Shown here: in pieces, positions 56,513 through 60,478 of the stretch
How positions within the stretch are numbered: position 1 is the stretch's first letter
Layout of the letters: the number at the start of each line of letters is the position of its first letter
Origin: Pseudomonas sp. ATCC PTA-122608
Lineage (GTDB): Bacteria; Pseudomonadota; Gammaproteobacteria; Pseudomonadales; Pseudomonadaceae
Reading direction: 5' to 3'
DNA length: 64,000 nt
NCBI RefSeq assembly: GCF_001952855.1
Contig: NZ_LPNO01000001.1
Span: forward strand, 442,101 to 506,100
The notes under the pieces: model-generated
Told to the model about the DNA's origin: nothing
Database searches by the model: none
The model's input: only the letters and a program-made list of their open reading frames with translations
Position numbers and translations under genes: made by a program

Positions 56513-56586
56513 GATAACCTTGTCCCTTTGTCGTCATTGGTCCGGCTATTCTAGCGCCTGACCCGCCGAAAAGGTTGATCCTGCTC

Positions 56587-59379
56587 ATGAGCCAAGCCCC
56601 CCTCGTCCTGGTGGACGGTTCTTCTTACCTGTACCGCGCCTTTCACGCGCTGCCGCCGCTCACCACGTCCAAAGGCCTGCCTACCGGCGCGGTCAAGGGC
56701 GTGCTGAACATGCTCAAAAGCCTGCGCAGGCAATACCCGAACAGCCCGTTCGCGGTAGTGTTCGACGCCAAGGGCGGGACATTTCGCGATGAGCTGTACG
56801 CCGAATACAAGGCCAACCGCGCGAGCATGCCCGATGACATGCGCGTGCAGATCGAGCCGCTGCACCAGAGCGTGATCGCCCTGGGCTTCCCGCTGCTGTG
56901 CGTCGAAGGCGTTGAAGCGGACGACGTGATCGGCACCCTGGCCCGCAGCAGCGCGGCTGCCGACCGGCCGGTGGTGATTTCCACCGGTGACAAGGACATG
57001 GCGCAACTGGTGGACGGGCACATTACCTTGGTCAACACCATGACCGGTAGCGCCATGGACGTTGAGGGCGTGAAGGAGAAATTCGGTGTCGCTCCCGAGC
57101 AGATCATCGATTACCTGGCGTTGATGGGCGACTCGTCCGACAACATCCCGGGCGTTCCCGGCATTGGTCCGAAGACAGCGTCCGGCTTGCTGGTAGGCGT
57201 GAACGGCGGTTTGAAAGAGCTCTACGAGCAGCTCGATATCGTGCCGACCTTGCCGATTCGTGGTGCCAAGACCTTGGTCGCCAAACTGGAAGAGCATAAG
57301 GCGAGTGCGTTCCTGTCCTACGAGTTGGCGACGATCAAGATCGACGTGCCGCTGGATGTGGGCCTGGACGACTTGCACCTGATCGAGCCGGATCGCGAGA
57401 AGCTGCTGGAGCTGTACACGCTGCTGGAGTTCAAGAGCTGGATTGACGAGATTCAGCGCGATGCCAAGCGGGTTGAATTGAGCGCAGCTCCGTCGGCTGC
57501 GGCCGCCGAGGAAGCGGTTGAGACAGTCGCTCCGGTTTCTGTCGAGCCGGTGTACGAAACCATCCTCACCCAGGCTCAGTTTGATGCCTGGCTGAAGAAG
57601 CTCAACGACGCCAAGCTGTTCGCCTTCGATACCGAAACCACCGGGATCGACGCCCAGAAAGCGCAACTGGTGGGTGTTTCGTTTGCCGTGCAGGCCCATG
57701 AAGCGGCCTACATTCCGCTGACCCATTCCTACATCGGCGCGCCGGAACAGCTGGATCGCGACACCGTGCTGCTGGCCCTGAAGCCCTTGCTCGAAGACCC
57801 GGAAAAACTCAAGGTCGGCCAGCACGCCAAGTTCGACATGAACATCCTGGCCAACTGCGCCATCGGTGGCGACCCGGCACACGGCATCACCGTGCGCGGC
57901 ATCGCCTTCGACACCATGCTTGAGTCCTACGTGCTCAACTCCGTCGCGACCCGCCACGACATGGACAGCCTGGCGAAGAAGTACCTGGACTACGACACCG
58001 TCAGCTTCCAGGACATCGCCGGCAAAGGCGCCAAGCAGCTGACCTTTGACCAGATTGCCTTGGAGCAAGCCGGGCCTTACGCGGCGGAAGACGCTGATGT
58101 AACCCTGCGCCTGCACCAGGAACTGCATAAGCAACTGTCGGCCATTCCTACCTTGGCCAGCGTCGTGTCCGACATCGAGATGCCGCTGGTGCCGGTGTTG
58201 GCGCGCATTGAACGCCAGGGCGCCCTGGTGGATGCCGCCTTGCTGGGTATCCAGAGCATCGAGCTGGGCAACAAGATGGTCGACCTGGAGCGCCAGGCCT
58301 ACGAGATCGCAGGCGAGGAATTCAACCTGGGTTCGCCCAAGCAGTTGGGCGCGATCCTCTACGAGAAGCTAGGGCTGCCGGTGCTGAAGAAGACCGGCAA
58401 GGGCCAGGCCTCGACGGCCGAGGAAGTCTTGGCCAAATTGGCTGAAGACGACTATCCGCTGCCGAAAGTGCTGATGCAGTACCGCAGTATGAGCAAGCTG
58501 AAAAGCACTTACACCGACCGCCTGCCCGAGCAGATCAACCCGCGCACCGGGCGGGTTCACACGTCCTATCACCAGGCCGTCGCGGCTACCGGGCGTCTGT
58601 CTTCCAGCGATCCAAACCTGCAGAACATTCCGGTGCGTACCGCCGAAGGCCGGCGGATTCGCCAGGCGTTTATAGCACCGAAAGGCTACAAACTGCTGGC
58701 GGCGGACTATTCGCAGATCGAGCTGCGCATCATGGCGCATTTGTCCAAGGATGAAGGGTTGCTGAATGCGTTCCGCGACGACCTGGACGTGCACACCGCC
58801 ACGGCGGCCGAGGTGTTCAAGGTTGAGTTGGCTGAGGTCACGTCCAATCAGCGTCGCAGTGCCAAGGCGATCAACTTTGGCCTGATCTACGGCATGGGTG
58901 CCCAGAAGCTCGGCAAGGACATTGGTGTCGACACCAAGACCGCCAAGGCTTACATCGATGTGTATTTCGCCCGCTACCCGGGGGTTCGCGAGTACATGGA
59001 CCGCACCCGCGCCCAGGCGGCTGATCAGGGCTACGTGGAAACCCTGTTCGGGCGCCGCCTGTACTTGCCTGAGATCAACTCCAACAAGCCTCAGGAGCGT
59101 GCTGGCGCCGAGCGAACGGCGATCAACGCGCCGATGCAGGGTACCGCAGCCGATATCATCAAGAAGGCCATGGTCAAGGTCGACAACTGGCTGACGGCCT
59201 CGGGCCTGGATGCCAAGGTCATCCTTCAGGTGCACGATGAATTGGTGCTGGAAGTGCGTGAGGATCTGGTGGCTGAAGTCAGCGCGAAGATTCGTGAGCA
59301 CATGAGCGATGCGGCGAAGCTGGATGTGCCGCTGGTGGTGGACGTCGGCGTGGGCGACAACTGGGACGAGGCGCACTAA
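56587..59379 (+). CDS. polA: DNA polymerase I
   Basis: PolA fills gaps and removes RNA primers in replication and repair. The 930-residue protein has all three domains. The 5' nuclease (about 1-290) shows [25 protein letters not shown] and [17 protein letters not shown]. The 3'-5' proofreading domain (about 330-520) shows the acidic [11 protein letters not shown] near 343. The polymerase domain shows motif [12 protein letters not shown] (about 706), motif [15 protein letters not shown] (about 758) and motif [12 protein letters not shown] (about 881). I start at the ATG at 56587; a TTG at 56575 is the alternative. It is an intact, proofreading-proficient enzyme. Confidence 0.97.
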
Positions 59380-59469
59380 GCACGGGCCTGGGCCGCAGCG
59401 TCATGCCGCGGCAGCGCTTTAGATCGGAAAACGCGGCGAGTTATTTCCAATAGTTTTTTGAGCGTGCTG

Positions 59470-59497
59470 GAACTTAACCCGTGAATTGCTACTCAGA
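59470..59497 (+). promoter_or_regulatory. AlgU (sigma-22) promoter of the putative ErsA RNA
   Basis: GAACTT (59470-59475), a 17-base spacer and TCAGA (59493-59497) match the sigma-22 pattern and equal the element at 21452 in both boxes and spacing. The expected transcription start is near 59504. Confidence 0.75.
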
Positions 59498-59503
59498 GTT
59501 ACT

Positions 59504-59633
59504 GAATGGGTGGTGAAGCCCTTCAATGCTCCTATGTTGTGTTAAGTGTTGGCAGATATCTGGACCCCGCCCTAGCGGTCCGGAACTTGGACCCCGAACT
59601 TCCCCTCCCCATACGAAGTCCGGGGTTTTTTTT
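59504..59633 (+). ncRNA. ersA: Putative ErsA/Spot 42-like small RNA
   Basis: The polA-engB gap is where E. coli encodes Spot 42 and P. aeruginosa encodes the envelope-stress sRNA ErsA. Here the gap has a matching AlgU promoter and a strong terminator 95 bases later. The transcript of about 130 nt agrees with the size I recall for ErsA (about 132 nt). It has no convincing ORF. The C-rich segment TTCCCCTCCCC (59600-59610) sits in the terminator loop and could pair with Shine-Dalgarno sequences of target mRNAs, as expected for an Hfq-dependent regulator. The exact 5' end is estimated from the promoter, not measured. Confidence 0.75.
59592..59633 (+). terminator. Rho-independent terminator of the ErsA-like RNA
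   Basis: The ten-base arms CCCCGAACTT (59592-59601) and AAGTCCGGGG (59616-59625), with one mismatch, are followed by eight T residues. The loop is C-rich. It also separates polA from the convergent engB. Confidence 0.88.
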
Positions 59634-59644
59634 GCCCCGAGTTT

Positions 59645-60286
59645 TTACTCGGCAGCTTCCGAACCCTTGTCAGCCAGTTCCATCCAGCCTGCCAGTACCG
59701 TGTAGGCATCTTCCAGGCCCATGCGTTTTGGCGCCGAGAACAGCTGGATAGTCACCGCATCGCCCCAACCTTTACGGATTTCTGCCTGCACTTTGAGCAG
59801 GGTGTTTTTCGCTGCGCCGTAGGTCAATTTGTCGGCCTTGGTCAGCAGGACATGCATCGGCATGCCGCTGGCGACGGCCCAATCGAGCATCAACAGGTCG
59901 AAGTCGGTCATTGGATGACGGATGTCCATCATCAGAATCAGACCCTTCAAACTCTCCCGGCCACCCAGATAAGCTTCCAGGTGACGCTGCCAGTGCAGCT
60001 TCAGCGGGATAGGTACTTTTGCATAACCGTAGCCCGGAAGGTCGACCAGACGCCGATCATCGTCTAGCTTGAAGAAGTTGAGGAGCTGTGTGCGCCCCGG
60101 GGTTTTCGAGGTGCGGGCCAGGCTGGCGTGGGTCAGGGTGTTCAGCGCGCTGGATTTACCGGCGTTGGAACGGCCGGCGAATGCGACTTCGAAGCCTTCG
60201 TCATCGGGGCATTGGTCGACTTTGGCGGCGCTGAGCATGAAGGTGGACTGTTGGCACAGGCCGAGGATGGGATTCTTGAGTTGCAT
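59645..60286 (-). CDS. engB: Ribosome biogenesis GTPase EngB (YihA/YsxC)
   Basis: EngB is an essential GTPase in 50S assembly. The 213-residue protein has G1 [14 protein letters not shown] (about residue 33), G3 [11 protein letters not shown] (about 80), G4 LTKADKL (about 145) and a late FSAPKRMG. The start is the ATG at 60286 ([16 protein letters not shown]), matching the family; a longer in-frame extension to 60412 is not conserved. It is convergent with polA, with the sRNA gene between, and divergent from the cytochrome genes. Confidence 0.95.
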
Positions 60287-60478
60287 GAGTTTTCCGATGT
60301 GGGCGGTGCCGGGAATGGGTGCGGCAAGCGGTGTCGTTTCCGTTTCAGTAGCGCCAGTATATAATGCCGCAGATTTTGTGTGTGCTTTGTCCCAGCGAAG
60401 GATGAAGTTCACGGGAGCGATAGACCTTTATTGCGCATTAGAACGCAAAACGCTCTCAAACCCTGAAAAGGTCGATGT

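Follow-up and report, generated by a model that had tools for sequence, protein, structure and literature searches.

The small RNA ErsA of Pseudomonas aeruginosa is encoded between polA and engB and activates anr, by prediction via a U-rich linear domain (PMC8575079). In other reports, its expression depends strictly on sigma-22 and it regulates algC negatively (PMC7565897), it represses oprD in an Hfq-dependent manner (PMC7264166), and it activates amrZ (PMC5819304). The small RNA sX13 targets G-rich motifs near start codons without Hfq; its authors observe that Spot 42 and alpha-r7 also lie at polA and raise the case of other bacteria as a question (PMC3771888).

By title, that sX13 paper was the only one among the publications retrieved on polA-linked C-rich small RNAs to concern this question. 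Our search found no publication treating sX13 and ErsA together, and none treating Pseudomon-1 and ErsA together; subscription papers, including the 2015 ErsA paper, lay outside the search, and the link may already be in print. Endozoicomonas and ErsA co-occurred, within the text searched, only in a Pseudomonas genome paper, and neither polA nor engB is mentioned in two Burkholderia papers that list anti-hemB.

The ersA locus and its conservation

The window, a 64-kb stretch of the genome of Pseudomonas sp. ATCC PTA-122608, contains polA (DNA polymerase I; 56575–59379, + strand, mechanically assigned ORF start, stop at 59379) and, convergent with it, the conserved neighbour engB/yihA, an ORF encoding a GTPase (59645–60412, − strand, stop at 59645). 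The gap between the two genes is the position known for ErsA, and in a tblastn search the polA protein of the window matched polA-adjacent loci. A cmscan comparison of the whole window with Rfam returned one match above cut-off, RF01719 (Pseudomon-1/ErsA) at 59526–59641 on the + strand, with 130.8 bits against a gathering score of 50 bits (E = 2.6e-26) and coverage of the full model, positions 1–116. The original prediction of an ErsA gene at this place is therefore confirmed; the locus is ersA, an envelope-stress small RNA already known and ordinary for Pseudomonas. The genome carries one copy. RF01719 was present in 246 of 249 sampled Pseudomonas genomes, including all 240 with at least 90% completeness and at most 5% contamination; the three genomes without it are 86, 73 and 77% complete.

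Second, sub-cut-off RF01719 matches in three Pseudomonas genomes (L057–L059, 36–39.6 bits) were considered as paralogues and rejected. Polymerase or GTPase gene (polA/engB), ErsA core, ErsA-form promoter and a match to R1, a model described below, were all lacking in these loci, although a looser promoter pattern matched GAACCTT...TCCTA in L058 and L059. These two loci share a stretch at ~1500–1600 (match orientation) with no polA/engB nearby, a CTCC motif and a terminator loop holding CTCCCC, which is perhaps another C-rich small RNA.

Upstream of the Rfam match lies a promoter of the AlgU/sigma-22 (sigma-E) type, with the −35 element GAACTT at 59470–59475, a 17-nt spacer and the −10 element TCAGA at 59493–59497, as the original prediction had read it. 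A sigma-70 promoter scan of the ersA region found none, as expected for a promoter of the ECF type. To assess conservation, we compared 67 Pseudomonadaceae loci, our own included, taken from the best- and weakest-scoring rows rather than drawn at random. The form GAAC[TC][TA]-N16-17-TC[AT][GT]A was found in 66 of them, with the strict GAACTT in 29 and GAACTA in the other 37, which upholds the claim that the gene has its own AlgU-type promoter. Conservation was ~0.5 at 59416–59445 and 0.77 at 59446–59455, formed islands at the −35 and −10 elements, reached ~0.8–1.0 over 59506–59635, and fell downstream to 0.66 and then 0.4. The moderately conserved stretch just 5' of the −35 element (TCCAATAGTT in the window) is perhaps an upstream promoter element.

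With a 5' end placed from the promoter at ~59504 and the end of the T-run at 59633, the predicted transcript (+ strand) measures 130 nt, in agreement with the length of about 130 nt originally proposed, and it is supported by both the RF01719 match and the conserved block. Its predicted fold begins with a conserved stem-loop 1 (59504–59524), followed by a linear region (59525–59558) containing CUCCU at 59529–59533 and GUGUUAAGUGUUGGCA at 59539–59554, a stem-loop 2 with CCCCGCCCUAGCGG (59559–59584), and a stem-loop 3 that forms the intrinsic terminator with its C-rich loop and T-run (59589–59633). The RF01719 model starts ~22 nt inside this transcript, at 59526, and omits stem-loop 1. Both CUCCU and the GUGUU..AGUGUUGGCA motif of the linear region were kept in 67 of 67 loci, and a terminator loop with a run of at least four C in 65. 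In the minimum-energy fold, the terminator hairpin spans 59589–59628 with the loop CCCUCCCCAUAC. The fold energy is ordinary (z = −1.12; 31 of 200 shuffles were as good), and so it is conservation and homology that support the gene. A second hairpin, CGGGG-TTTTTTTT-GCCCCG followed by AGTTTTT (59621–59639), overlaps the 3' arm of the terminator and could serve as a back-up terminator; its tail is less conserved.

The gap had also been described as free of ORFs. Mechanical ORFs do cross it, at 59506–59751 and 59526–59705, but neither counts as a gene, since both pass through the terminator into the antisense of engB. For the same reason, a small protein encoded within ersA, as spfP is in Spot 42, was rejected: the ORFs over the RNA extend beyond its terminator.

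Two other readings of the gap were weighed. The first, already disfavoured, takes the locus for a genuine orthologue of Spot 42 (spf) that shares the biology of its E. coli counterpart. It would agree with the position, as spf lies between polA and yihA in E. coli. Moreover, according to a review, the initial identification of ErsA was as a functional Spot 42 orthologue (PMC8395346), and the engB-linked SPA0122 is labelled 'Spot42' in a table of another paper (PMC3349714). We nevertheless consider this reading very improbable. The Spot 42 model RF00021 detects E. coli yet matches nothing in our genome, and it is absent among the locus matches up to E = 10. E. coli spf itself scores 9.5 bits with R1 and 11.2 bits with R2 (the second of the models described below), in both cases through the terminator alone; the motif used finds no GAACTT-type promoter for it, and GUAA forms the loop of its terminator. 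The covariance search suggested in the original prediction thus succeeded with the ErsA model and failed with that of spf, and of the label 'ErsA/Spot 42-type' the ErsA part stands, with 'Spot 42-type' holding for position only. It is still harder to believe that the gap is only the terminator region of polA, with no separate gene. The terminator would also stop any read-through from polA, but conservation covers the promoter hexamers and the part of the RNA that precedes the terminator, and is poor in the stretch between promoter and polA (59416–59445); the strict sigma-22 dependence of ErsA in P. aeruginosa (PMC7565897) likewise speaks against it.

Proposed function and targets

We regard it as highly likely that the locus is the ersA gene of this Pseudomonas, producing an AlgU-transcribed, Hfq-assisted, trans-acting RNA of ~130 nt that tunes genes during envelope stress. 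The locus matches the ErsA family in sequence, structure, promoter motif and synteny; transcription, AlgU control, Hfq use and targets we infer, for AlgU and Hfq from the P. aeruginosa papers. RNA polymerase with AlgU (sigma-22) would initiate at ~59504, and the intrinsic terminator would end the RNA at ~59633. The product would be a trans-acting, Hfq-assisted small RNA of ~130 nt, whose CUCCU, linear core and C-rich loops most likely pair with ribosome-binding regions of mRNAs that are rich in G. Under envelope stress, such pairing would adjust genes for exopolysaccharide, the envelope and metabolism.

The original prediction placed the pairing seed in the C-rich terminator loop, as UUCCCCUCCCC. 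A seed in this loop is plausible, given that C-rich loops recur in the wider set of RNAs considered below and the run of C is so widely kept; the UUC of UUCCCCUCCCC, by contrast, belongs to the terminator stem in the minimum-energy fold. The single-stranded segment with CUCCU and GUGUUAAGUGUUGGCA, retained in every one of the 67 loci, is at least as good a candidate.

Conservation of the P. aeruginosa ErsA targets in this strain was not supported by a duplex-energy test. With algC, amrZ and anr identified in our genome by Pfam matches and by reading of the proteins, their start regions did not surpass 50 other genes of the window in duplex energy, in a test that used simple energies for two ErsA segments and ignored accessibility.

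Similar RNAs in other families

In an order-wide sample, RF01719 matched 23 of 293 genomes at E ≤ 0.001. Thirteen scored above the cut-off, all of them Pseudomonadaceae, and the 50-bit cut-off missed all ten genomes found outside that family. The 11 loci of these ten genomes (L071–L081, with L071 interrupted by a contig end) have a GAACTT-type promoter, and polA and/or engB was found in 9 of the 11, the exceptions L071 and L078 belonging to one genus. We built a model, R1, from 10 of these loci, using the outsiders alone because MAFFT misplaced their CUCC motif in a joint alignment. In R1, as in R2, base pairs were modelled in the terminator only, so that the other hairpins lie outside the test, and E-values are rough.

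R1 matched the window at 36.3 bits (E = 2.8e-8) and found all 23 Pseudomonadaceae sources given, window included, and none of the three suspected paralogues, in a test that is not fully independent as its 10 loci had been selected by RF01719. Over the order, it matched 35 of 293 genomes, namely the 13 Pseudomonadaceae, 16 genomes in three families (f2, f8 and f34) at E ≤ 6e-6, and six weak ones across six families. A pattern scan matched four records, from Endozoicomonas arenosclerae, two Zooshikella species and Candidatus Parabeggiatoa, and f8 and f34 are probably Endozoicomonadaceae and Zooshikellaceae. The Candidatus Parabeggiatoa match (L115), with no polA/engB and no promoter motif in the stretch examined, was treated as chance, as was L114, placed in sequence read as coding.

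In 8 of the 16 genomes of f2, f8 and f34, two or three R1 matches lie side by side. These tandem matches (L074/L081, L080, L078, L071, L089, L094, L102 and L105, in genomes G431, G470, G294, G249, G409, G451, G332 and G508) adjoin polA in six of the eight genomes. Both a GAACTT-type promoter and the core are present in each of two copies in L087, L089, L094 and L095. L075 has a second, weak R1/R2 match (2018–2101, − strand) ~500 bp away from its first one, which is possibly a diverged tandem copy. Sub-cut-off ErsA orthologues with tandem copies outside the Pseudomonadaceae are new, a conclusion we hold with moderate confidence; they have the same promoter type as ErsA and mostly the same locus, and go beyond the literature found.

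Over a class-wide sample, R1 matched 14 of 369 genomes. Twelve were outside the Pseudomonadaceae, ten of these by the 3' part only, and polA or engB was present in 8 of the 12 loci. We then turned from the model to the place and surveyed the 3' ends of engB genes, with similarity to engB as the sole basis of choice. The survey covered 28 loci (L176–L203) and 60 of the further rows listed, the latter mostly a single one from each family and clear of contig ends, which makes 88 loci from 81 families, with none from Pseudomonadaceae. The rows are the better engB matches, with families of less similar engB under-sampled, and the stretches of L244 and L259 are shortened by contig ends.

On the strand converging on engB, 50 of the 88 loci had a terminator, 32 a terminator with a CCCC loop and 34 the promoter motif; a sigma-E-type promoter with a CCCC-loop terminator 60–230 nt away occurred in 17 (16 families). 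Among the controls, the other strand of the same loci had 10 terminators, 2 with a CCCC loop, 6 promoters and 2 combinations, and three shuffles gave 13–15, 0–1, 4–7 and 0, respectively. The corresponding counts were 6, 0, 1 and 0 for 28 engB 5' flanks on the same strand, 10, 1, 0 and 0 for their other strand, and 27, 0, 5 and 0 for 182 tiles of the window (91 per strand). The criteria were fixed after inspection of the first 28 loci; the 60 fresh loci alone gave 21 CCCC-loop terminators, 11 of them with a promoter, one of these positives (L248) being a place already known as an R1 match (L119). The two other-strand positives (L180 and L230), with promoter and C-rich terminator near engB at spacings of 115 and 108 nt, look like flipped copies of the gene.

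Twenty-six loci had the promoter with any terminator, at a spacing of 95–131 nt (median 111.5; 119 in the window). Their RNAs form three or four hairpins, in many cases with loops such as CCUCCCU, CCCCA and CCCCCC. As 56 of the 88 loci lacked a CCCC-loop terminator, the gene is widespread, not universal. We also consider it new, with moderate confidence, that a C-rich RNA under a sigma-E-type promoter is widespread at the polA–engB junction.

A possible common line and comparison with known RNAs

In the Rfam comparison, 20 of the 26 loci were scanned. For 15 of them, anti-hemB (RF02837) matched the predicted RNA at E ≤ 0.01, in two cases above cut-off; sX13, Pseudomon-1 and ar14 had one match each, below cut-off. 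Loci examined earlier gave a similar result: of 14 sources, 8 matched anti-hemB at E ≤ 0.1, one of them above cut-off. A second model, R2, built from 23 of the 26 other-family RNAs, gave a single match in the 64-kb window, within ErsA at 59551–59633 (28.4 bits, E = 1.3e-4 over 204 kb). It also matched 21 of 21 Pseudomonadaceae sources, window included and mostly over the 3' part; its best score in 16 unrelated loci of our genome was 12.3 bits (E = 0.51).

These results suggest that ErsA, sX13 and anti-hemB share an ancestor. We lean, by a little, towards regarding ErsA as one branch of an old, mostly unrecognised polA–engB small RNA line in Gammaproteobacteria (in the GTDB sense, which includes the former Betaproteobacteria), acting as a conserved envelope-stress repressor of G-rich start sites. 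Members of this line would have a sigma-E-type promoter, an RNA of ~95–135 nt and hairpin loops such as CCUCCC, CCCCA and CCCCCC, with two or three tandem copies in Endozoicomonas-type lineages; Rfam would hold pieces of it without a common clan, as Pseudomon-1, anti-hemB, sX13 and perhaps ar14.

The C-rich RNAs at polA–engB elsewhere could instead have converged on a useful loop with no descent in common with ErsA, an explanation we find rather doubtful but take seriously. It draws on the 5' part of ErsA, which differs from the other-family RNAs, and on the R2 match in the window being confined to the 3' part; in addition, direct Rfam matches to the window RNA are insignificant, with 15.4 bits (E = 1, 59525–59632) for sX13 (RF02232, cut-off 50) and 12.9 bits (E = 1.7) for anti-hemB (cut-off 49.5), and we therefore do not assign the window RNA to either family. 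Convergence accounts less readily for the same place, the same promoter type and the mostly same direction relative to engB, for a promoter-to-terminator spacing in the 26 loci that brackets that of the window, for the lack of any further R2 match in the window, and for the loci of f2, f8 and f34, which are intermediate.

The finding adds little for the window itself: a genus-wide RNA is confirmed and its likely ends are given. The 88-locus survey weighs more, as a first computed answer with controls; with it, a shared origin and a shared function of ErsA, sX13 and anti-hemB can be put to the test. If this reading is right, target work from one genus could be transferred to many.

Compared with described systems, the window RNA shares with Spot 42 of E. 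coli (RF00021) the polA–engB/yihA position, but it has no match to that model and other loops; the E. coli RNA, in addition, has a short coding sequence annotated as spfP and no GAACTT-type promoter. The Xanthomonas RNA sX13 also adjoins polA and forms three stem-loops with C-rich loops (PMC3771888), but it acts without Hfq and has no significant sequence match to the window. Anti-hemB of Burkholderia is insignificant on the window RNA, although its model matches 15 of the 20 scanned other-family polA/engB RNAs, which share the promoter type and terminator. The nearest counterpart is ErsA/Pseudomon-1 of P. aeruginosa: compared with the family model rather than the P. aeruginosa sequence, the window RNA displays no essential difference, and it agrees with ErsA in the full-length model match, promoter type, polA–engB position and length.
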